DNA of 64,000 nucleotides, from assembly GCF_032813545.1 (NCBI RefSeq), contig NZ_CP136520.1:4954001-5018000 (forward strand), given 5' to 3'. This document shows, in pieces, positions 1,698-58,471 of the stretch. Source of the stretch: Nodosilinea sp. E11 (GTDB lineage Bacteria > Cyanobacteriota > Cyanobacteriia > Phormidesmidales > Phormidesmidaceae). The first letter of the stretch is position 1. The number at the start of each line of letters is the position of its first letter. The notes below the pieces were generated by a model. The model saw only the letters and a program-made list of their open reading frames with translations, was not told where the DNA came from and did not search any database. The position numbers and the translations under genes are program-made.

Positions 1698-4235
1698 ATG
1701 GCGGAAGCACAACCTTCCCCGCCCGATTGGGTGCGGCTGCAGCGGGCTCTCTCCGTGGAGGCCGAAACCGGCTTTAACGACCTAGTGGGTAAACAGCAAC
1801 GCTTCAGCGAGTTTTTGCGCGATAGCTTACACCAGCCGCCCGCTAGTTTGCCTGGAGATCAGCAGGGTGCTTGGCAGACCCTGGCCCACAAGTATGCGGG
1901 TTATATCGACCTGAGCTTTGCCCAGCGTCAGCATTTAGTAGCCGAGACCCGTCGTTTTCTCTACGGTACCCAGCGCCTGCTGGAGAAAGTGGCGGAAACC
2001 AAAACCCTCCGCACCAAGGAGGGTAGCCCGGTAGAACCGGGTGAATCTACCCCCGCTAAAACCTCTCGACGGCCCAAAACCACCCCCAAAACCACCCAAC
2101 TAGCGGAGACCTCCGGGACGGGTAGCTTGCGCGTTGGCCTCGAACAGCCAATCACTTACTTGAAGGGTATTGGGCCTAAAAACAGCGATCGCCTTGCCAA
2201 GTTGGGCCTCTTTACGGTTCAAGATGTCCTCTATTACTACCCCCGCGATCACATCAACTACGCCCAGCAGGTCAAAATTCGCGACTTAGAACCGGGCGAA
2301 ACCGTCACGATTGTCGGCACCGTCAAGCGGGTCAACTGCTTCACCAGCCCCCGCAATAAAAAGCTGACCATTTTTGAGTTGCAACTCTCCGACGGCAGTG
2401 GCACCCTCAAGCTCAACCGCTTTTACCCCGGCAATCGTTACGCTACCCCCAGCTGGCAGCAGCAGCAAAAACGCCAGTATCCTCAGGGGGCGATCGTCGC
2501 CGCCTCGGGCCTGGTGAAGGCGGGCAAGTTTGGGGTGACGCTGGAAGATCCACACCTAGAGGTGTTGGATAGCCTGAGCGATCGCATCGAGTCGCTCACC
2601 ATTGGCCGTATGGTGCCGGTGTATGCGCTCACCGAGGGCGTTCCTGCCGATCTGGTACGCAAAGCAGTGGCCGCCGCCCTGCCCGCCCTTCCAGACCTAC
2701 AGGATCCGCTACCGGTAGATCTGCGACAGCGGTACGAGTTGATTGGGGTGGGGGATGCGATCGGGCAAATCCACTTTCCCGACGACGAAGCGCACCTAGC
2801 CCAAGCCCGCCGCCGCCTAATCTTCGACGAATTTCTTTACCTTCAGCTTGGTTTACTGCGCCGTCGCCAGCAGCAGCAGGCTCAGCAAACCGCCATTACC
2901 CTGGCTCCCACCGGAGCCCTGATCGACGACTTTTACAACATCATTCCCTTTAGCCTCACCGGGGCTCAACAGCGTGTCGTCAACGACATTCTCTCCGACC
3001 TGCAAAAGCCCGTCCCCATGAACCGCTTAGTGCAGGGCGATGTGGGGTCTGGGAAAACCGTAGTAGCGGTGGTCGCGACCCTCGCTGCCATTCAGTCGGG
3101 CTACCAGGCCGCCATTATGGCCCCCACCGAAGTACTAGCCGAGCAGCACTACCGCAAGCTAGTGGAGTGGTTCAACCAGCTGCACCTCACTGTAGAACTG
3201 CTGACGGGGTCTACCCGAGCCGCCAAACGGCGTCAAATGCTGGGAGAACTCGCCACCGGAGAGCTTCCCATTCTGGTTGGCACCCATGCCCTGATCGAAG
3301 ATCCCGTTCAATTTCGCGACCTGGGTCTGGTCGTGATCGATGAGCAGCACCGCTTTGGTGTGCAGCAGCGGGCCAGGCTGACCCAAAAAGGGGCTAACCC
3401 CCACGTACTTACCCTCACGGCTACCCCCATTCCCCGCACGCTAACGCTGACCATGCACGGCGATTTAGACGTAAGCCAGATCGACGAACTGCCGCCGGGG
3501 CGCAAAACGATTCAAACCACCCTGCTGACCAATAAAGAACGCACCCATGCCTACGACCTCATGCGCCGCGAGATCGCCCAGGGTCGCCAGGTCTACGTCG
3601 TGCTACCCCTGGTAGACGAGTCAGAAAAGCTCGATCTAAAATCGGCGGTGGAAGAGCACCAGCGGTTAGCAGAGGTGATTTTTCCGGAGTTCACTGTTGG
3701 TCTGCTCCACGGGCGCATGTCTTCCGCCGAGAAAGATGCCGCCATTACCGCCTTTCGTAATCAGGAGAGCCACATTCTGGTATCGACTACCGTGGTGGAA
3801 GTTGGGGTAGATGTGCCCAATGCCTCGGTAATGCTGATCGAGCATGCCGAACGGTTTGGCCTGTCTCAACTGCACCAGCTGCGGGGCCGGGTGGGGCGCG
3901 GGGCAGCACAGTCGTTTTGCCTCTTGCTCAGCGGCAGCCGCAGCGAAAATGCCTTGCAGCGGCTCAAAGTATTAGAGCAATCTCAAGATGGCTTCTTTAT
4001 CGCCGAGATGGATCTGCGCTTTCGCGGTCCTGGAGAGGTGCTGGGTACCCGTCAGTCGGGCCTGCCTGACTTTGCGCTGGCGAGTTTGATTGAGGATCAA
4101 GATGTGCTGATGGTCGCTCGTCAGGCGGCAGAAGCGCTGCTTAAAGAAGATCCAGCCCTAGCTCGCTGGCCCAAACTGTCCAAAGAGCTCCAGCGCCGCT
4201 ACGAAAAACTGATGGGCGGCGCAATTATGACCTAA
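1698..4235 (+). CDS. recG: ATP-dependent DNA helicase RecG
   Basis: An 845-aa RecG, which remodels stalled replication forks and Holliday junctions. After a cyanobacteria-type N-terminal extension (~150 aa), the wedge/OB domain begins near PITYLKGIGPKNSDRLAKLG. The helicase core shows Walker A GDVGSGKT (residues 447-454), motif Ia APTEVLAEQH, the DEQH Walker B box (548-551), motif III TLTATPIPRTL and motif VI QLRGRVGRG, followed by the RecG C-terminal domain. I chose the ATG at 1698 (protein begins MAEAQPSPPDWVR); the frame stays open 29 codons further upstream, but that would overlap the preceding gene. Confidence 0.97.
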   Translation: MAEAQPSPPDWVRLQRALSVEAETGFNDLVGKQQRFSEFLRDSLHQPPASLPGDQQGAWQTLAHKYAGYIDLSFAQRQHLVAETRRFLYGTQRLLEKVAETKTLRTKEGSPVEPGESTPAKTSRRPKTTPKTTQLAETSGTGSLRVGLEQPITYLKGIGPKNSDRLAKLGLFTVQDVLYYYPRDHINYAQQVKIRDLEPGETVTIVGTVKRVNCFTSPRNKKLTIFELQLSDGSGTLKLNRFYPGNRYATPSWQQQQKRQYPQGAIVAASGLVKAGKFGVTLEDPHLEVLDSLSDRIESLTIGRMVPVYALTEGVPADLVRKAVAAALPALPDLQDPLPVDLRQRYELIGVGDAIGQIHFPDDEAHLAQARRRLIFDEFLYLQLGLLRRRQQQQAQQTAITLAPTGALIDDFYNIIPFSLTGAQQRVVNDILSDLQKPVPMNRLVQGDVGSGKTVVAVVATLAAIQSGYQAAIMAPTEVLAEQHYRKLVEWFNQLHLTVELLTGSTRAAKRRQMLGELATGELPILVGTHALIEDPVQFRDLGLVVIDEQHRFGVQQRARLTQKGANPHVLTLTATPIPRTLTLTMHGDLDVSQIDELPPGRKTIQTTLLTNKERTHAYDLMRREIAQGRQVYVVLPLVDESEKLDLKSAVEEHQRLAEVIFPEFTVGLLHGRMSSAEKDAAITAFRNQESHILVSTTVVEVGVDVPNASVMLIEHAERFGLSQLHQLRGRVGRGAAQSFCLLLSGSRSENALQRLKVLEQSQDGFFIAEMDLRFRGPGEVLGTRQSGLPDFALASLIEDQDVLMVARQAAEALLKEDPALARWPKLSKELQRRYEKLMGGAIMT

Positions 4236-4554
4236 GCTAGCGTTCGATTTAAGCGTAAGAGCTATAGCTGTGGCCAAGCAGGTGAGTCATCTCCCCCATC
4301 AATATCTCCCCGTAAATACCTAACATTTGAACCTTTTGCAGCCCTTCTAGCTGCCCTCTCTAATGGACCGAGGCCTCTCTAGACCCTCCAGCGGTGGTGG
4401 CGAATTATCTATGCGACAATAAACACCTATGGCTTGAGCGAAGCGCACTCAATCTTCCCCATCGCCTTGGCGCTTGGCAACTCTCTGGCTGCTCAAGTCG
4501 TCAATCTCTGCACGCTCTGTAAACCATCGCCCCACCCCCTACTTCACCCTGCCC
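4236..4554. other. Intergenic region between recG and helicase-like gene
   Basis: About 320 bases with no convincing gene, RNA or strong hairpin. If the following gene starts at the earlier ATG (4474) the gap is 238 bases. It presumably holds the promoter of the downstream gene, but I could not assign -35/-10 boxes. Confidence 0.4.
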
Positions 4555-6087
4555 GTGATTGAGGCCCAAGTACACCAACAACTGCGCGCCCTGCTGCGGG
4601 AATGGGGAGAGCCAAGCTGGCCCCATCATTTGACGCTGGCACGGCTGGTGGCGCGGGCGTTGCGGCTGGGGCGCAGTGCTCTATTACAGGTAGGCGGCCT
4701 GTCGGCTTACCAGGGAGAATACCGCCTCAGCTACCTCATTGCCTTGATGATGTGGCCTGGTCCGGCCATCATTGTGGCTCCTGAGTCCACTATCCAGCGG
4801 GTGCTGATGGTCGAGTTGCCGCGCCTACAGGAAAAGCTGCGGCTGCGTAAGTCGGTGCAGCGGGGTAGTCATTGGCCCGGTGACACCTTCTCAGGTCTGC
4901 TAATGACCACGCCTGAGGACTGGCTGAGCGATCGCCTAGGGGGTGAAAACCGCTTTCCTGAAGGCATTCCAACCCTGATTGACGATGCCGATAACCTGGA
5001 GCGGTGGCTGCGTCAGCAACTCACCGCCGACCTCGGCCCCCTCGACTGGAATCAGCTAGCCTTGGCCTATCCCGATCATCAGAGGCTGATTCAAGATACC
5101 CATGTAGCCCTTACCCACGCCGCCTTTCAGCGCCCGACCAACCCCTACCATCGCTATCTTTTAGAAGAAGGGGACAGCCAACAGCTCCAGCGACTACACC
5201 AGATCCTCACCGCCAGTCGGGTGGAGTCCTCCCATGTCGAGGGGCCGATGCCGCCCCGATGGGCTGAGTTTTGGCGGCAGTTCAACCCGCCCAATCACCT
5301 GCTGTGGTTTGCAGTCGAGCGCGATCGCGGCCAAATGAGCCTCCACTGCGCTCCGGTCGAGCTAGCCACAGCGTTAGCCCCCATCTGGGCTCAGCAGCCC
5401 GTGGTGCTGATCGGCGCTGCCCTCGACCTCGATGCGGCAGCCGATAATTTTCGCCAGCGGCTGGGGCTAGACGACCTCACCTGCCTTCAGTTTGCCCCTA
5501 ACCGCCACAACGACGCCATTCAGTTATACCTGCCCAGCCACCTACCGTTGCCGAATACGCCCGAATTCCAGGGAGGACTGCACCAGGAGATTCGTCGTCT
5601 GCTGATGGCGGTTCGCCCCGATCGCCCTGGCCCCACGGTGATTTTGCTGGACGATCTCCCTCTCAAAGGACAACTGGGGGCCGCCCTAGCAGGAGAGTTT
5701 GGCTCGCGAGTACAGGTAGAGCAGGCCGACATTGGCCCCAACAGCATTCTGGTAAGCGGCTGGGAGTTTTGGCGGCAGCACCGCGCCCTGGTGCCGCCGC
5801 CGGCCCTGTTGATCGTCGCGACTCTGCCATTGCCTTCCCTAGAAAACCCGATGGTGGCGAGTCGGGTAGCCTTTCACAAGCGGCGGCGGCAAGATTGGTT
5901 TCGCCTATACCTGTTGCCCACGGCGGTGACCGAGCTCCAGCGGGCGATCGCCCCTTCGCGGCAGCACCAGGGCATGGTGGCCCTGCTCGATACCCGCGTG
6001 CACTATCGCAGCTACGGAGCGCAAATTTTAGAGGCGCTGAGCCCAGCTGCCTGTGTGCGATCGCTGCCCGATGAGTGGAGGCCGTAG
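4555..6087 (+). CDS. Cyanobacterial DinG/Rad3-like helicase-fold protein, degenerate motifs
   Basis: A ~510-aa protein resembling a cyanobacterial family usually annotated as ATP-dependent DNA helicase (DinG/XPD-like). The pattern HHLTLARLVARALRLGRSALLQ, then RLSYLIALMMWPGPAIIVAPE, matches the region around helicase motifs I and Ia. However, the phosphate-binding loop expected there reads GGLSAYQGEYRL with no GK(T/S), and the motif II position reads LIDDADNL instead of DEAH. The protein may have lost ATPase activity or use divergent motifs. GTG at 4555 gives the family-like start MIEAQVHQQLRALLREWG; an ATG at 4474 in frame is the alternative. Function as a helicase is inference. Confidence 0.7.
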   Translation: MIEAQVHQQLRALLREWGEPSWPHHLTLARLVARALRLGRSALLQVGGLSAYQGEYRLSYLIALMMWPGPAIIVAPESTIQRVLMVELPRLQEKLRLRKSVQRGSHWPGDTFSGLLMTTPEDWLSDRLGGENRFPEGIPTLIDDADNLERWLRQQLTADLGPLDWNQLALAYPDHQRLIQDTHVALTHAAFQRPTNPYHRYLLEEGDSQQLQRLHQILTASRVESSHVEGPMPPRWAEFWRQFNPPNHLLWFAVERDRGQMSLHCAPVELATALAPIWAQQPVVLIGAALDLDAAADNFRQRLGLDDLTCLQFAPNRHNDAIQLYLPSHLPLPNTPEFQGGLHQEIRRLLMAVRPDRPGPTVILLDDLPLKGQLGAALAGEFGSRVQVEQADIGPNSILVSGWEFWRQHRALVPPPALLIVATLPLPSLENPMVASRVAFHKRRRQDWFRLYLLPTAVTELQRAIAPSRQHQGMVALLDTRVHYRSYGAQILEALSPAACVRSLPDEWRP

Positions 6088-6158
6088 CCAGAGTGATTGG
6101 CTTCCCAATTCGCTACCGTTAATGGTAGAACGAACGTAGAACGTAGCGGCGTATACCC

Positions 6159-6374
6159 ATGGGCGAATCAAAGCGACGCAAAGAACAGTTAGGAGATCAG
6201 TACGGGCAGGCCGAGCCGATTTTGCCTTGGCTCCCTATTACCAAAGACCAATCGCAGCAGTTTATGAAGTGGACCACTCGGGGCACCTGGGGATCCATTA
6301 TTGTGATTATTGCGTTTTGGATTACCCTGCGGTTTGTTGGGCCTGGGCTGGGCTGGTGGACCCTGGCAGACTGA
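6159..6374 (+). CDS. DUF2839 family small membrane protein
   Basis: A 71-aa protein starting MGESKRRKEQLGDQYGQ, with LPWLPITKDQSQQFMKWTTRGTW and one C-terminal hydrophobic helix (SIIVIIAFWITLRFVGPGLG). This is the signature of DUF2839, a family confined to cyanobacteria and plastids with no assigned function. The basic/polar N-terminus is expected to be cytoplasmic, with a single membrane span. It stands alone after the helicase-like gene. Confidence 0.88.
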   Translation: MGESKRRKEQLGDQYGQAEPILPWLPITKDQSQQFMKWTTRGTWGSIIVIIAFWITLRFVGPGLGWWTLAD

Positions 6375-6475
6375 GCGATGGTGCGCTGAGATAACAACCT
6401 CAGGGTTTCAACACAATCGGTCGCCTAATTGGCGATGATATAGCCATAGTCACTTGGGTTAGGACATCCAGAAAC

Positions 6476-6509
6476 CCTAGAAACGTTCGAACGTTCAAAC
6501 GTTCTTAGG
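6476..6509. promoter_or_regulatory. Imperfect 34-nt palindrome with 8-nt periodic CGTTC
   Basis: CGTTC occurs at 6484, 6492 and 6500, exactly 8 nt apart. The central GAACGTTC (6489-6496) is a perfect palindrome, and the whole block from CCTAG (6476) to TTAGG (6509) is palindromic with a few mismatches. It lies ~120 bases upstream of the 6629 gene and looks like a multi-site operator; no regulator can be named. Confidence 0.45.
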
Positions 6510-6628
6510 AGACATGTCTTAACCGAACTGGCTACAGCCATAGCTAAGAAATCGTAATCTAGGCTTTCCGTCTCCCGTAGATTCTAGGTAGAGTTAGGGG
6601 AGGTGGTTACGCTGGAGTTTAGGGGTAT

Positions 6629-8812
6629 ATGCTGAGCCAACAACGGCAGTCTGGGCCACAGCCGGGAGAGCCGTTAGCAGACGGATTATCCACCAATTTT
6701 CACTTAATTGACGATAGCGATGACCCAGCTCTGGCATTGCCCCAGATCCTGACCCCTGCTCCGGTAGGCAGCCAGTCGTGGCGCTTGCTGGTGATTTCTC
6801 TGCTGGGCTGCTTCGTCGCCAGCGGCGCAGCGGTAGGAGCTTTTCTTTGGCTGATCAACTTACCGCCTACCGCCAACTGCGAGACTACGGCTACCGTTAC
6901 CACCGATCGCGCTCAGTTATTCTGTGCCCAAACGGCTGCCGAATCGGGCGAGTTGAGCGATGTCTTGGCGGCCCTAGCCTTAGTCGGCAGTTGGACCGCC
7001 GACCATCCCCTCTACTACGAGGTACAGCCTCTGGTAGAGCAATGGTCGTGGGTGGCCCTGAAAGCCGCCGAGCAAGAACTGCGCAGCAATGGCAGTATGG
7101 CCGAAGCCCAGGCTTTAGTCGGGTATATTCCAGCCGACAGCGCAGTCTTTGCTACGGCGCAAAACACCATCGCTACCTGGCAGAGCGAGTGGGAGCAGGG
7201 GGAGGCTCTCTTGGCCATCGCCCAGGAAGCCCTAAAGCAGAAAGATTGGCCTACCGCTACGCTGCAAGTGCAGGCCCTAGCAGAACTGAACAACTCTCAC
7301 TGGCGGGTGAATCAGGTCCAGGCTCTATCTCGCCAGATTCGCCAGGAGCGCCAGGCCCAGGAACTGCTCGATCGGGCTGTAGCCACAGCGGCCCCTGGGG
7401 GCAGCGATCGCCTCGCCGCCGCTCTGGACACCGCCAGCCAGATCGATGAGGGCACCTACGCCCGCCAGCATGCCCAGCCTTACCTCAATCGCTGGAGCGA
7501 CCTACTGCTCGATCTGGGCTTAGACAAGTGGTACAGCTCAGAGTTAGATGCTGCTCTTGCCCTGGGCCGCAGTGCCGCCCTCAACCCCAGCCGCGCCAAA
7601 GTCGCCCAAGACCTGATCTGGCTGAGTCAGTCTCGACAACTGGCTCAGCAAAGTCTGACTGCCTGGCGCACCTCTCCCGACCAAATGGTCAAGCTTTACC
7701 AAGCTATGCTGCTGGCCAACCGAGTCTCGACCGACAGCCCCTACTACGCTCAGGCCCAGTCTAGTGTAGCCACCTGGCGGGGCCATCTGGGCGATCTGGC
7801 TCGGTTACAAACGGCCCAGGCCATTGGGCAGGTGCGCCATCGCGATGCTTTCAACGCAGCCATTGACCAAGCTGCCCAGGTTCCCCTGGGTCACCCTCGC
7901 CGGGTGCAGGCCCAAACCATGGTGGCCCACTGGCGGCAAGAAATCGAGCGGATTGAAGACCGTCCCCAGCTCATCCAGGCCCACACCCTGGCTAGTGCCA
8001 AAACCGTTGAAGGTCTGCAAGCGGCAATTCAAACCGCCAATGGAGTGGCGCTGCATCGCGCCTTGCGCAACGAGGCCCAGAGCTGGATTTACATCTGGAC
8101 TAGCGAGCTGCAGGTGATGGAAGACCAACCCCAGCTCAACCGAGCGCGATCGCTGGCTGCCCAGGGCAACCTCTCTCAAGCCATAGTGCAAGCCTCCAGT
8201 ATTCGACCAGGTCGGGCGCTGTATGGGGAAGCCCAAGCGGCGATCGCAGGCTGGCAGCGTCAGATCGCTGCCGCCGAACAGGCTCGCCTCCGTGCGCTTC
8301 AGCGCGCTGCCGCCCCCAGTATCGACCCAGCCCCAGCCCCCCTAGAACTGGAGGTAGACGCCTCCTCCAACGATCCGAGCATGCCGCCAGAAGAGGCCTT
8401 GCCCATAGCCCCAGCCCCGGCGATGCCCGATCAGCGGTTGCGGCGTGCGCCCCTGCCAGCTCGCATTGAAACCATCCCTGGCGACCCTGCCCCAGCGGCC
8501 ATCGAAGCCGTGCCCCCGTCCCCACCGTCATCCCAGCCCGCCGCCTATCCTACGCCAGATACAGTGCCAACAGAGGTGGTCCCGTTCCAGGCCCCGCCAG
8601 CGCCCTTGCCAGCCCCCGCTGCCGCACCTAGCCCGCTGCTAATCGTGCCACCAGTCGTCGCGCCTCAACCCCTTGAGATGGCCCCCGATTCAGGCGCTTC
8701 CCCCCTTAGAGAACCTCAGGCCGCGCAACCAGTAGTGCCTCGGGTATCTGTTCAACCCCAGCCCGAAGACAGCATTGGGGGCAGCCTGCGAACAATTGGC
8801 TCACTCCCCTAG
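6629..8812 (+). CDS. Single-span membrane protein with helical repeats and Pro-rich tail
   Basis: A 727-aa protein of unknown function. Residues 1-50 are polar, followed by one membrane span (RLLVISLLGCFVASGAAVGAFLWLI, ~52-76). Residues ~100-570 are Ala/Gln/Leu-rich helical repeats of about 40 residues carrying a pattern like A-x-x-x-I-A-x-W-Q (for example TAQNTIATWQ, AQSSVATWR, AQTMVAHWR, AQAAIAGWQ). The C-terminal ~160 residues are rich in Pro/Ala. The repeat resembles the C-terminal module of the caspase-fold protein at 44706-46694, so it may be a shared protein-interaction scaffold. The last 12 bases overlap the convergent DUF790 gene. Confidence 0.8.
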   Translation: MLSQQRQSGPQPGEPLADGLSTNFHLIDDSDDPALALPQILTPAPVGSQSWRLLVISLLGCFVASGAAVGAFLWLINLPPTANCETTATVTTDRAQLFCAQTAAESGELSDVLAALALVGSWTADHPLYYEVQPLVEQWSWVALKAAEQELRSNGSMAEAQALVGYIPADSAVFATAQNTIATWQSEWEQGEALLAIAQEALKQKDWPTATLQVQALAELNNSHWRVNQVQALSRQIRQERQAQELLDRAVATAAPGGSDRLAAALDTASQIDEGTYARQHAQPYLNRWSDLLLDLGLDKWYSSELDAALALGRSAALNPSRAKVAQDLIWLSQSRQLAQQSLTAWRTSPDQMVKLYQAMLLANRVSTDSPYYAQAQSSVATWRGHLGDLARLQTAQAIGQVRHRDAFNAAIDQAAQVPLGHPRRVQAQTMVAHWRQEIERIEDRPQLIQAHTLASAKTVEGLQAAIQTANGVALHRALRNEAQSWIYIWTSELQVMEDQPQLNRARSLAAQGNLSQAIVQASSIRPGRALYGEAQAAIAGWQRQIAAAEQARLRALQRAAAPSIDPAPAPLELEVDASSNDPSMPPEEALPIAPAPAMPDQRLRRAPLPARIETIPGDPAPAAIEAVPPSPPSSQPAAYPTPDTVPTEVVPFQAPPAPLPAPAAAPSPLLIVPPVVAPQPLEMAPDSGASPLREPQAAQPVVPRVSVQPQPEDSIGGSLRTIGSLP

Positions 8813-10015
8813 TACCGCTAGCACCACCTTGGGCTGAAGCTTGGTCTTGAACCACACCACCTGGGCAGGGACGTTCGCAATATCTACTCCAGCATTCTCC
8901 AGGTTGAGCCGTTCTGACACCGCTAAAATTAGGTTGTCGCGCCCCGACTGGCGCACCTGGGCAAACTTCTTACGCAAGTATTCAGGCCGCCAGTAGCCGA
9001 CAATTTCTAGCAGATACTCGCGCCCATCGGGGTGCACCAGGCGGAAGTCAGGAATCATCACGCTGCCAGGAATCGGCACCAGATCAACCTCTCGCTCTAG
9101 CCGCCAGGGCGTCTTGGCGGGCCAGCGGCTGACGAACGATTCTTCGACCATGCTGTCATAGGTTTTGCCGGGGGGGTAGTGGGTGATTAGCCCACAGTCG
9201 CTGTCGAGGGTAAATTGGCGGGACTTCACCTGCTGGGTGAAGTTATCCTTCATTTGTAAAGTTGCCGTCAGCCGCCACTTGCTCACATGCAGAATAGCCG
9301 GGATTAGCTTAGCGATATCCACCCCATAGCGAGTACTCGGCTTAAACAAACTGGCCGGGCCATCAATGGTGATAGTAAACCCCTGGTCTGCATCACCCTC
9401 AATGTAGGTCATCAGCCGAAACAACTTTAGGTAGCGAAACATCAGCTTATACTCGCCGGGGTCGTTGCGGTAGAGGTGCATGACCAGATCGCTGGCCTTA
9501 TAAAACACCCCCTGGGTCTGAGACAGGTTGTAGCGATGAATCAGTGCGTCAGGAGTAGGCGGCTCAAACTCGGTCAGAATGTGGTTGTCCTGGCGATCGG
9601 CATAGAGCCCCTGACGAATGTCAGCTACCGTCACTTCGCGATCCAGTTCTTCAGACAGTTGCTGGCCGAGAAGCGACAGGTGTTGCTCGGCAGCCGTGGG
9701 GGAGGGCACCGCCAGGGCCGCCAGGGCAAACACCCGCCGCCGCAGCTCGATCGGTTCCAACGGGCTAATCGCCTCGAAGGTGGAAAAGCTATTGCGCAAA
9801 ATGTGAGCCAGCCCCCGCTTGATGCGGTAGTTGGTATCTTCGCCTTCTAAATCTTGCAGTTGGCGGTTGAGCTCGCCCTGGGTGCGGCTCACCTGCTGCT
9901 GAAAAAGCTGGATTAAGTCGGCTGCGATCGCCCGATTGGCCGCATCCAACGCTAGCCGCTTCGGCTGAATCGCCTCTCCCTGATACCGGTAGATTAAAAG
10001 TTCGCTAGGTAACGT
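8801..10015 (-). CDS. DUF790 family nuclease (Bax1-like)
   Basis: A ~405-aa DUF790 protein. In archaea the DUF790 protein Bax1 is a structure-specific endonuclease partner of the XPB helicase. The expected nuclease core is visible near the C-terminus: MIPDFRLVHPDGREYLLEIVGYWRP, with the acidic D and E of a PD-(D/E)xK-like site; the rest is helical. Start choice is unusual: a GTG at 10024 overlaps the Shine-Dalgarno AGGAGG (10024-10029), whereas an ACG at 10015 sits 8 nt after it and yields the family-typical start (M)LPSELLIYRYQGE. An XPB gene is not adjacent, but a degenerate helicase-like gene lies 4 kb away. Confidence 0.85.
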   Translation of the reverse strand, partial: TLPSELLIYRYQGEAIQPKRLALDAANRAIAADLIQLFQQQVSRTQGELNRQLQDLEGEDTNYRIKRGLAHILRNSFSTFEAISPLEPIELRRRVFALAALAVPSPTAAEQHLSLLGQQLSEELDREVTVADIRQGLYADRQDNHILTEFEPPTPDALIHRYNLSQTQGVFYKASDLVMHLYRNDPGEYKLMFRYLKLFRLMTYIEGDADQGFTITIDGPASLFKPSTRYGVDIAKLIPAILHVSKWRLTATLQMKDNFTQQVKSRQFTLDSDCGLITHYPPGKTYDSMVEESFVSRWPAKTPWRLEREVDLVPIPGSVMIPDFRLVHPDGREYLLEIVGYWRPEYLRKKFAQVRQSGRDNLILAVSERLNLENAGVDIANVPAQVVWFKTKLQPKVVLAVLGE

Positions 10016-10092
10016 AGGCCTCACCTCCTAAAATAGTTGGAACAGCCGCCCATTGGATTGAACCCCAGGGCCTAAATCTTATCGGACTTCCC

Positions 10093-10992
10093 ATGCTCAA
10101 CTTTCAGCCCCTCGGCTTTATCCAGCAGGCGCTCCCGACCGATCTAGGGGTCATGGCTTACTACACTCCCGGCGGCTGGCCCTGGCAAGACGGTACAGCA
10201 GAATCCTCTCCGCCCCTGGTATTTCTTCACAGCCTAGGGGGCGGCTCCTCTGCCTATGAGTGGTCCCAGGTCTATGCCGCCTTTGGCGCTACCCACCGGG
10301 TGATTGCCCCTGACCTGATTGGCTGGGGCCAGTCTACCCATCCCGCCCGCGCCTACTCCACAGAAGACTACTTCTATATGATTACCCATCTGCTAGAGTC
10401 GGTGGCCCAGCCCCCCGCCCTAGTCGCGGCCACCTCGCTCACGGCTGGCGTGGTCATCCGTTTAGCAGGGCTGCGGCCCGATTTATTCAAGGGGTTGTTT
10501 TTGGTGTCGCCCTCCGGCAATAGCGACTTTGGCCGCGACTATAGAGCCAGTCTGCCGGCCCTGCTAGCCAGCACCCCCGGCGTTGACAAGGTGCTCTACC
10601 AGGTGGGGGCGGCCAATGAACTGGCGGTGCGATCGTTCCTTTCGACCTTTCTGTTTGCTGATCCTCGTCGCATCACGACTAACACTGTGCAGGCTTACCT
10701 CACCTGCACTCAGCAGCCCAACGCTGAATACTCAGCCCTGGCCTCCCTCAACGGAGCGGTTAGCTTTGATCTATCGCGCTATATCAACCAGTTGCAGACC
10801 CCAACCACCGTGGTACTGGGGTCTGGATCGCGGTTTAGCGCCCCGGCCATGGTTAAACGGCTGGCCAGCCTCAACCCCCAGTCAATCCAGCAGGTGATTG
10901 AAGTCCCTAACTCTGGGGTATTACCCCATGTCGAACACCCCGCCGTCGTCACAGGGCTGCTACGTCAGTTTCTCGCTACCCACAGCAGTTAA
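10093..10992 (+). CDS. Alpha/beta hydrolase
   Basis: A 299-aa alpha/beta-hydrolase-fold protein. The oxyanion segment FLHSLGGGSSAYEW, then VIAPDLIGWGQSTHP, fits the family. The nucleophile elbow reads AATSLTAG rather than GxSxG, so a Ser is present in an altered setting. The usual acid segment (GxxD) reads VVLGSGSRFS with no clear Asp, while the C-terminal His is present (LPHVEHP). Substrate is unknown, and activity may be unusual or reduced. Similar proteins occur throughout cyanobacteria. It is divergent from the DUF790 gene, with a 69-98-bp gap depending on the start used. Confidence 0.88.
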   Translation: MLNFQPLGFIQQALPTDLGVMAYYTPGGWPWQDGTAESSPPLVFLHSLGGGSSAYEWSQVYAAFGATHRVIAPDLIGWGQSTHPARAYSTEDYFYMITHLLESVAQPPALVAATSLTAGVVIRLAGLRPDLFKGLFLVSPSGNSDFGRDYRASLPALLASTPGVDKVLYQVGAANELAVRSFLSTFLFADPRRITTNTVQAYLTCTQQPNAEYSALASLNGAVSFDLSRYINQLQTPTTVVLGSGSRFSAPAMVKRLASLNPQSIQQVIEVPNSGVLPHVEHPAVVTGLLRQFLATHSS

Positions 10993-52601: not shown

Positions 52602-53192
52602 CTAACCCACCGGCCAATACCGATCGCTCCCTTGGTCATATCGCCAGCCACAGCCATCGGGGTCGCGATCGCGGCTCCAGGCAGACAAATCAGGGGTAGC
52701 ACGGTAGATCGCCAGATCGGCTTCGGTACAGCCCAGGCGCTGGGCGAGGGCGGCGGCGGTGAGCGAAAGGGCGATCGCTGGGGTCGTGGTGGGGGCGGGG
52801 TCTGCTGTGGTCTGGCTCCAGGAGCGAAAGGTGTAGAGCACATCCCCGCCTGGAGTGGGTTCAAAGTCGCCCCAAAAGTCTTTGGCCCGCTGGTCGAGAA
52901 ATTGGCGGGCCTCGCTGCCGGTTAGCTGGGCCGCGATCGCAAAATCGAGCACACTAATGCGGCCCTGGTGCGCTGCAATTTGGTCATAGAACAGCTGGTG
53001 GAGAGCCCGCTGCCGCGCCCGCTGTCGCCGCCAACCCCACACCGCGCCGCCGACGATACCCCCTAGCACCAGCCAGGGCAGCAGCAGCCGAATTACTAAC
53101 ACACCCAACAGCGCCACGGCGGCCAAGGCCAGCGCTACCCTCAAACGATATTCAAACCCGGCACCGGGGTTATGGAAAGGCCGCAGGGGCAT
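52602..53192 (-). CDS. Conserved membrane protein of unknown function
   Basis: A 196-aa protein. Two close hydrophobic segments (VALALAAVALLGVLVIRLLLP and WLVLGGIVGGAVWGW) form a hairpin anchor near residues 18-55, then a cytoplasmic domain with QLFYDQIAAHQGRISVLDFAIAAQLTGSEARQFLDQRAKDF, resembling a winged-helix-like segment, and a C-terminal tail. Function is unknown. Divergent from the 53236 gene by 43 bp. Confidence 0.8.
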   Translation of the reverse strand: MPLRPFHNPGAGFEYRLRVALALAAVALLGVLVIRLLLPWLVLGGIVGGAVWGWRRQRARQRALHQLFYDQIAAHQGRISVLDFAIAAQLTGSEARQFLDQRAKDFWGDFEPTPGGDVLYTFRSWSQTTADPAPTTTPAIALSLTAAALAQRLGCTEADLAIYRATPDLSAWSRDRDPDGCGWRYDQGSDRYWPVG

Positions 53193-53235: not shown

Positions 53236-53766
53236 ATGCTAACCTTTGCCACCCCCGCCGACGAGACCCAGGCCGCCCAGCTCATGCAGCCCTGCCTGAT
53301 TCGCGTCGTTGACAACATTCGCAAGCACACTGAAACCCTCGACTGGCGCAGCGAATACCTAGAGCAGGTGCGCTGGCCGGGCACTGCCACCGCTGAGCAG
53401 CGCCAGCAGGTGCGCGATTTGGCCGCTCAGCTCGAAGGAGCATCCCCCCAGCAGGTCGAAGTGATTCGTCAGCAGTTGAGTCAGCTGCCCACCCCTACCC
53501 CGGCCTACGAACTGCGCCTGACCCAGGGCGACGCCGCTGCACCCACTCGCACCGCTACCCTTGATCTGTGGGAACTGTGCTTTGAGGTCTGTTTTGACCA
53601 CTACCACCCCCAACAGCCGGTTGCGGTCGATACCGCGCTTTTGTTTGAGGACGGCGAAATCAACTGGTTGGTGCTCGACGAAAAGGCGAAAGCTCGGGTA
53701 GAACGGGCCATTGACCAGGCCACAGCGGCGGTTTCACCAGGGCCATACGGCACAATAGAGCAGTAG
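53236..53766 (+). CDS. Conserved cyanobacterial protein of unknown function
   Basis: A 176-aa cytoplasmic protein. The N-terminal ~90 residues are helical (QPCLIRVVDNIRKHTETLDWRSEYLEQVRWPG), and the C-terminal part includes LDLWELCFEVCFDHYHP and LFEDGEINWLVLDEKAKARVERAI. There is no membrane span. It is recognisable as a conserved hypothetical protein of cyanobacteria, with no assigned role. Confidence 0.8.
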   Translation: MLTFATPADETQAAQLMQPCLIRVVDNIRKHTETLDWRSEYLEQVRWPGTATAEQRQQVRDLAAQLEGASPQQVEVIRQQLSQLPTPTPAYELRLTQGDAAAPTRTATLDLWELCFEVCFDHYHPQQPVAVDTALLFEDGEINWLVLDEKAKARVERAIDQATAAVSPGPYGTIEQ

Positions 53767-53930: not shown

Positions 53931-54773
53931 ATGCTCGATCTGCACAGTCACACCACCTTCTCAGACGGCTCCCTGACGCCGACGGAGTTAGTCGCTGCCG
54001 CCCTAGAGTCGGGACTTCGGGCGCTGGCTATCACCGACCATGACACCCTAGCTGGGTGGGATGAGGCAGAGCTGGCGGCTGGCGATCGCCTGGAGGTGGT
54101 GCCGGGGGTAGAGCTGAGCACGGTGGAAGGGGGCCGATCGCTCCATATTTTGGGCTTTTATCCCAACCGCACGGCCCTTGAGCCACCCCTCAGCCAGCGC
54201 CTGGCGGGTCGCCGCCGCCGTGCCCAACACATGGTCGATAAGCTTGGCGAATTGGGTTATCCCATCGAACTGCCGCCCATGGGGGGCAATATGGCCCCTG
54301 GTCGGCCCCACTTGGCGGCGGCACTGGTTAAGGCGGGCCACGCCGAGTCAAAACGAGAGGCCTTTGATCGCTGGCTGGGCGATCACGGCCCCGTCTTTGT
54401 GCAGTACGAAAAGTTTTCGGCGGCTGAGGGCATTCAGCTCTTGCGCGACTGTGGTGCAGTACCGGTGTGGGCGCACCCGCACCTGTTTAAGGGATCAACG
54501 GTGACGGCCCTGCTGCCCCAGCTAGTCGATGCCGGGCTGATGGGGGTCGAAGTCTACCATCCTCACCACAGCCCTAGCGATGTGCGGCGGCTAGAAGACT
54601 ATTGCCGCAGCCACAATCTGGTGATGACCGGCGGCAGCGATTACCATGGGCCAGCAGAAAACAGCAAGCGCGATCGCAAAGCCCCGGCCCCGGCTACTCT
54701 CAACCAACTGCACCTGCCCCTAGACCTGCTAGTCCCCTTAAAACAGGCGGCGGCGACCCTCTCTCACCCATGA
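53931..54773 (+). CDS. PHP domain phosphoesterase
   Basis: A 280-aa PHP-fold protein of the TrpH/RNase AM type; such enzymes hydrolyse nucleotide or oligonucleotide 5' phosphates using a trinuclear metal site. Metal ligands are visible in LDLHSHTTFSDG (His5, His7), ITDHDTL, VPGVELS, VWAHPHLF and TGGSDYHGP. The stop codon TGA overlaps the ATG of the next gene (ATGA), which indicates translational coupling. Confidence 0.95.
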   Translation: MLDLHSHTTFSDGSLTPTELVAAALESGLRALAITDHDTLAGWDEAELAAGDRLEVVPGVELSTVEGGRSLHILGFYPNRTALEPPLSQRLAGRRRRAQHMVDKLGELGYPIELPPMGGNMAPGRPHLAAALVKAGHAESKREAFDRWLGDHGPVFVQYEKFSAAEGIQLLRDCGAVPVWAHPHLFKGSTVTALLPQLVDAGLMGVEVYHPHHSPSDVRRLEDYCRSHNLVMTGGSDYHGPAENSKRDRKAPAPATLNQLHLPLDLLVPLKQAAATLSHP

Positions 54774-57700
54774 TTGAACCGACCTTTGAAACCCTCTGGC
54801 AGGCCCTAGCAGGTATTTTGAGCTTCAGCCCTGAGGCCTTTCTAGCCCTGCGCCAGTTTCCAGACGATACCGTAGACGCCCTGGCCCTGGTGGTGGTGTT
54901 CGTGGCAGGGTTTTCCCAGGCGGTGGCCCAAAGCATTATTTTGTTTGTTAACCAGGTCAAGCCTCTGCGGTTTGTGCTCAGTCTGGTGCTGGCGGCGCTG
55001 CTGTTCGTGGCAGGCTATCTGTTTTGGGCGCTGAGTATCTGGCTGGCTAGCCGCTGGTTTCTAGAACAGTCGATTAGCTGGCAGGCGGTGACCGACGCCC
55101 TCGCTTTTAGTTATTTACCGCTGGTGTTTAGTTTTTTGGGTGCTATGCCCTACCTAGGAGTGCCCGTTCTGCGGCTGCTCTGGGTCTGGAACTTGCTGGC
55201 GGTGGTGGTGGGGTTTGCGGTGTTGGCTAACCTCAGCGCCCCTCAGGCAATGGGCCACGTCGGGTTGGGCTGGGTAGTGCTGCTAGTGCTTCAACAGACC
55301 GTGGGACAGCCAATTGTTAACCTGGGCCGCTGGCTAGCTAACCATACAGCCGGAGTCAAGCTGGTGATTAACCGGGGTCAGCTCAAGACCCTGATTGCCG
55401 CCAATCCCCTGGGGCCAAACCCAGCGGAATCGATCGCCAAGCGATCCTCATCGGCGGCCACGAGCCTCCCTCCCCTGCCCTCGCCCCCTAAGCCTGGTTT
55501 AACCCCGCCGCCGTCCTCTGATCTGTCGCCATCGACCTTGGCAGATATTGCCCCCCGTCGCTTCTCGCGGCGATCGATCTTGGCATCGCGGCAGCTGACC
55601 TTACTGGGCATCTATGTAGGGTTGGCAGGATTGGCGCTGGTGGTCGCCCTCAGCCTAGAGCCCCTGCGGGCCATGATCACCACCGGGCATGGTCAGAGCC
55701 GCACGGCCCGCTGGCTGGCTGACTTGCTCTGGATTGGGGCGATCGCCCTGGTGGTGGCGGCCATGCTCGCTCCCCTAGAGGCCCTGGGCTGGTGGGCTGG
55801 CTGGTATGGCGACGGTGTCGATACCCGCCACCCCGAGCGGCTGAACGACCCCGTCGCCACCCCCTCGCCCCGGCGGCGGTTTATTGTTTACCTCGACGGC
55901 ATTAACCAGGCCACCGCCGACTACCAGCCCACCGTGGCCCGTTACCTCGATCATCTGAGCGACCAGTTGCCCGCCGATATTGCTCTGGTCAAGGGGCTGA
56001 TTCCTTACTCGGTACTCAACCGATCGCTCACCCAAGACCGGCCCCTGGCCTTCTTCTGGCGCGGCATAGAAGCCCTGACCCAGCGGCTTGGCCCCTGGGT
56101 GGGAATGATTATCAACCTGCGTAATATTTTGATCGTGGCGGTTTCCGCCGACCAGCGCTTTGGGCCCATTTATAATCAGGGTGTTGCCCAGCGGGTGTAC
56201 GAAAGCCTCATCCGTCAGGGCTACCCTCCGACCGGCGGCATTCCCCTCACCCTAATTGGCTACAGCGGCGGCGGGCAGATTGCTATGGGCATTTTGCCCT
56301 TTCTTAAACAGGCGCTAGGGGCACCCATAGAGGTAATCTCGTTGGCCGGAGTGATCAGCGGCAACAGTCGCGCCCTAGAGGCCGAGCAGCTTTACCACTT
56401 GGTAGGTACCCAAGACCGAGTCGAACGGTTGGGGCCAATTATGTTTCCTCGCCGCTGGGCGATCGCGCCCCTGTCTTACTGGAACCGAGCCAAGCGTAAA
56501 GGCAAAATCAGCCTGGTTTCCCTAGGCCCAGTGCGTCACCAGGTGCCCGGTGGTGTGCTCGACGACCAAGCCTTTTTACCTGATGGTCGTAGTCATCTGC
56601 AACAGACCCTAGACCTAACCCTCGATATTTTGGTCGGTGACCTGCGCCAACACCTCGACTTACAAAAAATTCAGGTGGTTAACCTCGGTAACTACTACCA
56701 TTTTCAAGCTGCTCCCTTTAACCACCCCAGCTACTACCTGGTGCAGCAAACCTTGGCCGCACCGGAGTATCGCCCCGTGGGCCAATGGCTAGGGCGACTG
56801 GTGCTACCTGAGCTAGACCAGCGCGCCGACCTCGATGGCGTGTGGCTAGAACTGCTGCATACACCGCCCGCCTACCGAGACTGGCTGGGGCAGCGGGTGC
56901 TGCTGCGCTGGCAATATCCTAAGGACCTCAACCAACGCTTGCAGACCGTTAGCCGCGACATTCACTTCAGTGCCGAGGCCGAAGACTCGCACCGCCAGGG
57001 GCTAATTTTGCCTACCCGCCTCAACCACTGGCGACTGGTCACTCCCCTTGAATCGCTGGCCGGAGCCCGCCCCGTCGACGATGTCATCGTTAAACTGCCC
57101 GACCCAGTCAGCGTTGGGGGGGGCTTCGACCGAGGCCCCAACCAGCGTCACCCACTCACCCTCACGATCGCCCACGAACCGATCCAAATTGCAGGACTTT
57201 ACTACGCCCTGGTGCAGTTTCTCGGTCCTGTAGAGGAAGGTCTGGAACGCTATCGAGTGGTGCACTACAACCCGGCGACGAAAGCCTTTGATGGCTTTCA
57301 AGAAACCGTGCGGCTGCCGCTGGTGATACCCGACGGAGATGGCATTGCCCCCTCGACTAATCGCGATCTGGAGCGATCGCTCCTCAATACCGCTGGCTGG
57401 TATATCCACGGCGCTCAGGCCCATGACGGCGAGTTTGTAGTGCAGGCCCTGCGGCCCCGCTGTCTGTTTCAGCTGCGGCCCGATCACATTGTGACTAGCG
57501 CCCGTCAAGGACGACAATACCTGCGCCGTGAGTCGTGGGCCAATTTAGTGGCCAAAAAAGGCACCACTGAGTCAGTGCTGATTGACCCCAAAGCGAAGGA
57601 TGCCCAGGCGGCGATCGCTCAGTGGCAGCTAGGCGACCAGGCTCTGCTGGTGCATGTCTATGGCGGCATTGGTGGCGAACAGCGCGAGCCCGCCGCCAAA

Positions 57701-58471
57701 GGGCCGATTTACTTTGGCCACTTTGCCTACGGCATCGCCACTGTGGTGCGTGAACCTCTCACCCAAGAGCTTCAGTTTGACATTCATTACCACCAGGTCT
57801 ATACCCACAACCGGCGCGGGCTGATTGCAGGCACCCTCGATTGGTCGCTGTATATGGGCGATCGCCAGTGGGGGTTTATGGGCACTCGGCCCGTATCCGA
57901 CATCCTAATTAAACTCCCTGCCTATACCGAACCCTTCGACTTCAAGGGTGTTCCCTGGGCCGCCCTTGACGACCTCCGCATAGAGCTAGAACTGATGACG
58001 GCCCGCTACCGTACCGGTGATGGCACTGGCGTTACCTACGTCGGCCCAGCCAACAACTGCGCCCAAGACTCAAACCAAGCCATGTATGCCAGTGCCGCTC
58101 ATCTAGAGGCCTCAGTCCTAGCCCATCGAGCCACTCTCAAAGCCTGGGAAGCCGACAATCCCCACCAAGCCCAGCAGTTTCAGCAGTTGCTAAAACTGCG
58201 CCGAGACATTCAGCGCCAGCTATTGCCCTTAGGCAGTGCCCGCGCTGATTGGGCTCACGAACATGAATCCCTTGGCAGTAATCTCTCCGACTACCCGCTT
58301 AAAACCCTGGGGCGGGGTTTGCTGAGCTGGCGCACCATGCTGCCGCGTAAAGCTAGTGACACCATAACTCAACTCTGTCTGCGCCATGGCGCGGCCCTAT
58401 GGGTACTGCGCACCAACCAAATCGGCGGTCACGATCCCGCTATCGAGCCGCTTGCCCCCCTAACCCTGTAA
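54770..58471 (+). CDS. 1,233-aa multidomain membrane hydrolase
   Basis: Domain order: residues ~1-190, a Yip1-like membrane domain with about five spans; ~270-340, two more spans; ~365-640, an alpha/beta-hydrolase domain (RRFIVYLDGINQATADYQP, nucleophile elbow LIGYSGGGQIAMG with Ser499, VISLAGVISGNSR, YHLVGTQDRVERLG); ~690-950, a C-terminal domain unknown to me; ~960-1110, a region with HFAYGIATV (His984) and YVGPANNCAQDSNQAMY (Cys1097) that might be a cysteine-hydrolase fold; and a helical tail. ATG 54770 overlaps the PHP stop. Similar long proteins in cyanobacteria are sometimes labelled CAAX protease-like, but I see no supporting motif. Function is unknown. Confidence 0.85.
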   Translation: MIEPTFETLWQALAGILSFSPEAFLALRQFPDDTVDALALVVVFVAGFSQAVAQSIILFVNQVKPLRFVLSLVLAALLFVAGYLFWALSIWLASRWFLEQSISWQAVTDALAFSYLPLVFSFLGAMPYLGVPVLRLLWVWNLLAVVVGFAVLANLSAPQAMGHVGLGWVVLLVLQQTVGQPIVNLGRWLANHTAGVKLVINRGQLKTLIAANPLGPNPAESIAKRSSSAATSLPPLPSPPKPGLTPPPSSDLSPSTLADIAPRRFSRRSILASRQLTLLGIYVGLAGLALVVALSLEPLRAMITTGHGQSRTARWLADLLWIGAIALVVAAMLAPLEALGWWAGWYGDGVDTRHPERLNDPVATPSPRRRFIVYLDGINQATADYQPTVARYLDHLSDQLPADIALVKGLIPYSVLNRSLTQDRPLAFFWRGIEALTQRLGPWVGMIINLRNILIVAVSADQRFGPIYNQGVAQRVYESLIRQGYPPTGGIPLTLIGYSGGGQIAMGILPFLKQALGAPIEVISLAGVISGNSRALEAEQLYHLVGTQDRVERLGPIMFPRRWAIAPLSYWNRAKRKGKISLVSLGPVRHQVPGGVLDDQAFLPDGRSHLQQTLDLTLDILVGDLRQHLDLQKIQVVNLGNYYHFQAAPFNHPSYYLVQQTLAAPEYRPVGQWLGRLVLPELDQRADLDGVWLELLHTPPAYRDWLGQRVLLRWQYPKDLNQRLQTVSRDIHFSAEAEDSHRQGLILPTRLNHWRLVTPLESLAGARPVDDVIVKLPDPVSVGGGFDRGPNQRHPLTLTIAHEPIQIAGLYYALVQFLGPVEEGLERYRVVHYNPATKAFDGFQETVRLPLVIPDGDGIAPSTNRDLERSLLNTAGWYIHGAQAHDGEFVVQALRPRCLFQLRPDHIVTSARQGRQYLRRESWANLVAKKGTTESVLIDPKAKDAQAAIAQWQLGDQALLVHVYGGIGGEQREPAAKGPIYFGHFAYGIATVVREPLTQELQFDIHYHQVYTHNRRGLIAGTLDWSLYMGDRQWGFMGTRPVSDILIKLPAYTEPFDFKGVPWAALDDLRIELELMTARYRTGDGTGVTYVGPANNCAQDSNQAMYASAAHLEASVLAHRATLKAWEADNPHQAQQFQQLLKLRRDIQRQLLPLGSARADWAHEHESLGSNLSDYPLKTLGRGLLSWRTMLPRKASDTITQLCLRHGAALWVLRTNQIGGHDPAIEPLAPLTL

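Follow-up and report, generated by a model that had tools for sequence, protein, structure and literature searches.

The question raised by this locus is what a membrane protein of 1,233 amino acids carrying two sets of catalytic-looking residues might do in the cell, and whether the PHP phosphoesterase encoded directly in front of it contributes to that activity. Both genes lie within the window, that is, the whole stretch of 64,000 nucleotides of DNA analysed here. The reading that we favour, at slightly better than an even chance, is that the 1,233-aa protein is anchored in the membrane and handles acyl groups at two separate centres, one a serine hydrolase and the other a permuted papain-like domain, and that the PHP enzyme is not part of it.

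Both open reading frames are real genes. They overlap through an ATGA at 54770-54773, as an earlier note on this DNA had claimed, and Ser499, His984 and Cys1097, which that note had singled out, were found at the named positions in the translation and in the alignment (Table 1). The mechanical ORF listing puts the start of the larger frame at an upstream TTG at position 54602, but the ATG at 54770 is the better start because the alignments of several close relatives (L004 and L006-L010, for example) begin at residue 1. The genome carrying the window is 6.1 Mb in size, and the nearest named relatives are Nodosilinea and its neighbours. Further downstream in the window, two tandem FecR-domain genes (PF04773; 58730-60364 and 60406-61764) have near-identical N-terminal parts and differing low-complexity tails (GANPNPN repeats versus a G/I/N-rich sequence).

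Table 1. Features of the PHP and membrane protein genes, in window positions; residue numbers refer to the 1,233-aa protein.
Feature	Position	Strand	Basis
PHP phosphoesterase gene, 280 aa	53931..54773	+	Pfam PHP, E 1e-10
1,233-aa membrane protein gene	54770..58471	+	ORF, translation, homology
N-terminal TM module, about 5 helices, residues 1-195	54770..55354	+	predicted, model m9add4b98c824
Two long hydrophobic helices N-terminal to the hydrolase, residues 264-343	55559..55798	+	model
Alpha/beta hydrolase domain, residues 365-625	55862..56644	+	model, VIA-align
Ser499, nucleophile in GYSGGGQ	56264..56266	+	73/73 rows
Asp549, putative catalytic acid	56414..56416	+	73/73 rows
His590, putative catalytic His	56537..56539	+	73/73 rows
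Beta-rich subdomain of the C-module, perhaps OB/SH3-like, residues 640-915	56687..57514	+	model; OB-fold matches weak, Z 2.0-2.3
Predicted permuted papain-like (NlpC/P60-type) domain, residues 916-1233	57515..58468	+	model match to 3kw0
GD motif, Gly955-Asp956, just ahead of beta-1 (residues 957-964)	57632..57637	+	G955 76/79, D956 64/79
His984, start of beta-2	57719..57721	+	79/79; CPBP fusions 35/35
Gln1009, beta-3, candidate third triad residue	57794..57796	+	79/79; CPBP fusions 35/35
Tyr1080, candidate NlpC/P60 signature Tyr	58007..58009	+	78/79; CPBP fusions 35/35
Cys1097, N-terminus of a helix	58058..58060	+	78/79; CPBP fusions 35/35

The 1,233-aa protein matched no Pfam or NCBIfam model over cut-off. 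Matches to it were found in 35 of the 57 genomes searched, its own genome counted, and a search of genome contigs yielded 78 homologous loci with best-segment identities of 37-83%. Nearly all of these loci are labelled cyanobacterial; three family members come from contigs that carry the label Eremiobacterota/Eremiobacteria (L078, L093 and L103, the first two on long branches), and could stem from an old transfer, shared ancestry or mis-binning. In L094, L105 and L108, the family gene is split into two or more frames, and these are probably pseudogenes or assembly errors. Conservation was assessed in an alignment of 79 rows, which left out the same-genus loci L001-L020 and truncated or broken ORFs, and from which five rows with last 500 residues identical to those of another row had been dropped (84 to 79). 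Over residues 640-1233, these 79 sequences have a median pairwise identity of 51% and form 41 clusters at 70%; for the Ser-Asp-His triad, counts are over the 73 rows with a hydrolase domain. What gives the family its interest is a strictly conserved C-terminal module (C-module) with catalytic-looking residues, unnamed by Pfam and NCBIfam and present in 67 of 194 sampled cyanobacterial genomes, about a third. In line with the view of the earlier note that no function was described for this architecture, our literature search, as far as the accessible text of open-licence papers goes, gave no description of this protein family.

Does the PHP enzyme belong to the same machine? By its matches it seems to be an ordinary phosphatase or nuclease of the nucleotide type: the NCBIfam model for nucleoside bisphosphate phosphatases matched with an E-value of 2.9e-45, but with 154.6 bits versus a cut-off of 400. 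Residues E61, H72, H182, D237 and H239 are present in 26 of 26 sequences and H5 and H7 in 23 of 23, as three of the 26 sequences lack the N-terminal end. The proposal that phosphoesterase and membrane protein form one new envelope or signalling system finds support in the ATGA overlap and in the adjacency of the two genes in all 17 Nodosilinea-group loci that keep an N-terminus; the arrangement is thus not a peculiarity of this genome, because it holds through a clade. The PHP gene is nevertheless no constant neighbour, since outside this group it adjoins the family gene in none of 52 loci with at least 1 kb upstream. These counts cover the 78 loci L031-L108 (17 with PHP, 52 without, 2 with too little upstream sequence and 7 without N-terminus), and the truncated PHP loci L043, L055, L098 and L107 were placed in the group by identity (62-77% over the best segment), off the tree. 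In the tree of 73 rows, a single change explains the 14 PHP rows (the window and 13 loci). The spacing between the PHP and family genes ranges from -146 to +29 bp with mechanical ORF starts, and the large overlaps arise because such starts use upstream start codons. A full-length paralogue in the same genome (L109) has no PHP neighbour, and neither does L149, a same-family relative in another genus that is 59% identical over the C-module (of the two extra outgroups, L148 is the same stretch as L097, so that L149 alone is new). The two proteins also occur without each other: PHP orthologues (E < 1e-80) are present in 14 of 19 genomes tested, among them G032, G033, G045, G050 and G054 without a match to the 1,233-aa protein, and G028, G038, G039 and G047 have the C-module and no PHP orthologue. 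The adjacency counts, the tree and this separate occurrence contradict a general partnership, and we regard a joint system as very improbable. The PHP gene shares an operon with the family gene in one clade and stands outside the machine formed by the TM module, the hydrolase and the C-module. Two small genes, at 53236-53766 (+) and 52602-53192 (-) of the window, recur by the PHP gene in 16 and 14 loci of its group, respectively; neither matches a Pfam model over cut-off, and all other loci of the set lack them.

The membrane protein itself begins with a predicted bundle of TM helices, for which model m9add4b98c824 has a pLDDT of 69 over the first ten residues and of 86-96 per ten-residue block thereafter. 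This model, of residues 1-645 (overall pLDDT 80), places TM helices, a low-confidence linker, two hydrophobic helices and an alpha/beta hydrolase in succession, and hydropathy maxima lie at residues 276-294 and 316-334. The protein had been called Yip1-like; the model shows a helix bundle, and the label itself is weak, as the Yip1 family (PF04893) matched in 1 of 39 members with an E-value of 0.2. In 23 of the 78 loci, the TM module is encoded separately and directly upstream of a gene for the hydrolase and C-module, with a 4-bp overlap in 11 of the 23 (mechanical ORF ends). As TM module and hydrolase stay together when split, the TM-hydrolase-C-module set is the conserved unit. Its other neighbours vary; over flanks reaching at most 6 kb, the recurrent ones are DUF3611 and BrkB (10 loci each), MarC (5) and DUF308 (4), each cluster named from one example. 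Divergent stand-alone hydrolase and TM genes lie side by side in the genome carrying the window (L111) and in L057; in the latter (3719-10287) they adjoin a full-length gene of the family, and genes for DUF308 and DUF3611 are found nearby. The loop charges give conflicting signals on the sidedness of the window protein: for the full-length form, mean charges are +1.47 in the TM1-2 loop, +2.11 in the first part of the linker after TM5 and -3.14 after TM7, and for 25 split forms +1.56 in the N-terminal flank, +0.56 in the loop and -2.64 after the second TM helix.

The suggestion that an alpha/beta hydrolase with Ser499 as nucleophile follows the membrane segments is well borne out. The predicted domain aligned with dienelactone hydrolase in VIA-align with a Z-score of 12.8 (201 residues, rmsd 3.5) and with PETase with a Z-score of 12.7, and the best Foldseek E-value was 0.056. 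Together with the invariant G-x-S-x-G nucleophile, Asp549 and His590, the predicted fold places the domain in the alpha/beta hydrolase superfamily. Pfam matches to Thioesterase, Scabin-like, ParBc_2 and Herpes_UL49_2 were all under their cut-offs and confined to few members, and were rejected as family assignments; the Thioesterase match, with a best E-value of 0.018, occurs in 10 of 39 members and spans residues 490-523 around the nucleophile in the window protein.

The second centre lies in the C-module. Ser499, His984 and Cys1097 are conserved in 73 of 73, 79 of 79 and 78 of 79 rows, respectively, and the conservation of both residue sets gives good support to two catalytic centres on one membrane protein, as first proposed. 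Cys1097 is the sole conserved Cys among three, the other two being present in 6 and 14 of 79 rows. A single locus (L049, 5977-9708) has Ser in its place within an otherwise conserved context, which is either a natural active-site variant or a sequencing error. The AlphaFold model of residues 640-1233 (pLDDT 87, pTM 0.91) contains a beta-rich part followed by strands beta1-beta5, a helix, the Cys-bearing helix, further helices and a late beta strand. Its best match in the PDB was 3kw0, with a Z-score of 6.2 (158 residues, rmsd 3.9) over residues 916-1216 (model 277-577), which falls below the value of 8 that the structure-alignment tool calls safe. This was the only chain with a Z-score of at least 5 among 995 aligned, the next reaching 2.3; YiiX (2if6) and further chains of the permuted papain-like type are absent from the VIA list, and their absence is no evidence against the fold. 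According to the accessible text of PMC3142127, the protein in 3kw0, BcPPNE, has the same element order and the same succession of His, polar residue, Tyr and Cys as the C-module model, and the DSSP order in our model agrees with it. The catalytic arrangement used for this comparison is also given in the parts of the papain-like enzyme survey PMC10318531 available to us. The conservation of His984 and Cys1097 suggests a Cys/His dyad with the His first, and the motif order GD, Gln1009, Tyr1080 is kept, with Gln1009 and Tyr1080 as candidates for the catalytic polar residue and Tyr. The Asp of the GD motif, present in 64 of 79 rows, speaks against the assignment.

Foldseek and sequence-based comparisons gave no further support for this assignment. 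Foldseek searches of the C-module model against PDB or BFVD returned nothing at E <= 0.001, and Pfam matches to Peptidase_C92 (PF05708), LRAT (PF04970) and NlpC/P60 were absent from 54 members at E <= 1; the genome carrying the window has no C92 match, and the gene that matches LRAT there is a different one. Profile-profile alignment (hhalign) of residues 930-1233 gave no credible match to three cyanobacterial C92 proteins (P 0.44) or to 12 cyanobacterial LRAT proteins, where a P of 0.052 came from 37 helix columns outside the catalytic core and compares with 0.066 for the lowest of 23 unrelated controls, at a low profile diversity (Neff 2.9). A PDB sequence search with two profiles produced no credible match, and on the hhalign and Pfam results we rejected the idea that the C-module is homologous in sequence to LRAT or C92 proteins. 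The middling Z-score and the negative profile tests would also suit a fold that is not papain-like, in which His984 and Cys1097 serve structure or metal binding, as would a second invariant His, His962 (79/79), located 22 residues N-terminal to His984. As 3kw0 is a single, well-separated structural match that agrees with the model in the order of both catalytic motifs and secondary structure elements, we consider such a fold quite unlikely. We propose that residues 916-1233 probably adopt a permuted papain-like fold of the NlpC/P60 type, which is not proven because the Z-score is middling, Foldseek was not significant and the profiles gave no credible match.

The C-module is also used in a second setting, namely at the N-terminal side of a CAAX/Rce1-type CPBP domain in proteins of 796-895 amino acids, one of which is encoded in the same genome (L110, 4298-6853; PF02517 E 3e-12). 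PF02517 was over cut-off in 3 of 3 fusions scanned, and the CPBP/Rce1 assignment thus concerns these paralogues only. CPBP domains carry the motifs EExxxR, FxxxH and H, with an N/D position in motif 3. Among 35 rows (33 distinct proteins), the first Glu of EExxxR is present in 34, the second Glu and the Arg in 35, the motif-2 His in 32 and the motif-3 His in 35, and the motif-3 N/D position is V, I or F in all 35; Gly955 and Asp956 of the GD motif each have their counterpart in 34 of 35. Hydrolase-type and CPBP-type genes are direct neighbours in L112 (14 bp apart) and L146 (112 bp), and lie about 1.5 kb apart in L147. In six genomes (G039, G060, G083, G154, G165 and G206), an open frame of some 590-700 aa carries the C-module but no CPBP domain, and a CPBP protein of roughly 200 aa that resembles the fused one is encoded separately; such CPBP proteins were also found in genomes lacking the C-module.

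An N-terminal TM helix is present in 29 of the 33 fusions, and the charge bias of every one of these puts the module outside the cytoplasm. Such a location, and the presence of cell-wall hydrolases in the NlpC/P60 superfamily (as described in the accessible text of PMC3142127 and PMC10318531), would fit a C-terminal NlpC/P60-type cysteine peptidase or peptidoglycan amidase that trims envelope proteins or the wall, with the serine enzyme removing esters such as O-acetyl groups. We consider this unlikely: 3kw0, the chain matched by the model, belongs to the permuted branch, for which the available part of PMC3142127 describes a hydrophobic pocket and a probable lipid-amide specificity; none of 54 members has a Pfam match to NlpC/P60, C92 or LRAT at E <= 1; and the membrane anchor and the pairing with CPBP may suit lipid substrates better.

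We therefore return to the acyl-handling enzyme. The main ground for proposing acyl chemistry is that the combination of NlpC/P60 and CPBP parts parallels that of LnsA/LnsB, described in the accessible sections of PMC7387801 as the S. aureus lipoprotein N-acylation system, composed of LnsA, a permuted NlpC/P60 enzyme, and LnsB, which is remotely related to CPBP; 3KW0 is listed there among the closest homologues of LnsA. Both centres of the window protein might thus act on acylated substrates, which could be lipids, lipid-modified proteins or amines. The Ser499-Asp549-His590 centre would cut ester or thioester bonds, and the His984-Gln1009-Cys1097 centre would cut or transfer acyl groups via an acyl-cysteine, in the manner supposed for its nearest structural relatives. 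One might speculate further that an undescribed family of permuted papain-like acyltransferases forms two membrane machines in cyanobacteria, namely the LnsA-LnsB-like CPBP fusion and a version with a TM module and serine esterase in place of the CPBP half, so that acyl release at one centre and transfer or cleavage at the other could take place on a single chain; to this extended proposal we assign a low probability. Lnt was over cut-off in 169 of 194 cyanobacterial genomes, including the genome carrying the window, and matched at E <= 0.001 in 193. Hence, there is no evident basic need for lipoprotein N-acylation, the C-module is unlikely to substitute for a missing Lnt, and any acceptor would have to be of another kind or a particular subset of lipoproteins. 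A role in phage defence was dismissed, as neither the membrane protein nor its CPBP paralogue nor the PHP enzyme had a PADLOC match at E <= 0.1. The extended proposal, if correct, would add a new acyl-remodelling system to the cyanobacterial membrane, at work beside Lnt. A C-module that is a lipid- or lipoprotein-acyl enzyme would by itself mean a further bacterial family of acyl-modifying enzymes and an independent case of the pairing of permuted NlpC/P60 and CPBP parts seen in Lns. The role of the CPBP-related partner in Lns is an open question according to the text of PMC7387801 at hand, and the natural C-module-CPBP fusions make the role of such a partner directly testable.

How does the protein compare with known systems? 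Among phosphoesterases, the PHP enzyme resembles RNase RNM and the 3',5'-nucleoside bisphosphate phosphatases, although its matches to NF041577 (E 2.9e-45) and NF047791 (E 1.7e-39) are both under the curated cut-offs. The hydrolase shares its predicted fold (Z 11.7-12.8 over the 50 rows listed) and the Ser-Asp-His triad with dienelactone hydrolase, PETase and cutinase, but is only 7-17% identical to them in the same rows and is membrane-anchored and fused to other modules. BcPPNE of B. cereus is a YaeF/YiiX-like (C92) permuted NlpC/P60 enzyme, and the C-module is like it in predicted fold, in the GD ahead of beta-1, in the Cys at a helix start and in the succession of the site residues (His, then a polar residue, Tyr and Cys). 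Unlike BcPPNE, with which it has no detectable sequence similarity, the window protein is much larger, has an extra beta-rich domain and membrane modules, and has Gln as candidate third polar residue where C92-type enzymes have Glu. LRAT/HRASLS proteins (PF04970) have a permuted papain-like order and carry out acyl transfer on membrane lipids, as the accessible parts of PMC7387801 and PMC10318531 describe; in contrast to them, the C-module has no Pfam match, and separate LRAT proteins are present in cyanobacteria (50 of 96 genomes), including the genome carrying the window. The likeness to Lns is one of described make-up. The window protein differs from Lns in having a TM module and an alpha/beta hydrolase and no CPBP domain, whereas its 796-895-aa paralogues unite the predicted permuted NlpC/P60-type and CPBP-related parts in one chain and keep the EExxxR residues, motifs that, according to the available text of PMC7387801, have diverged in LnsB.
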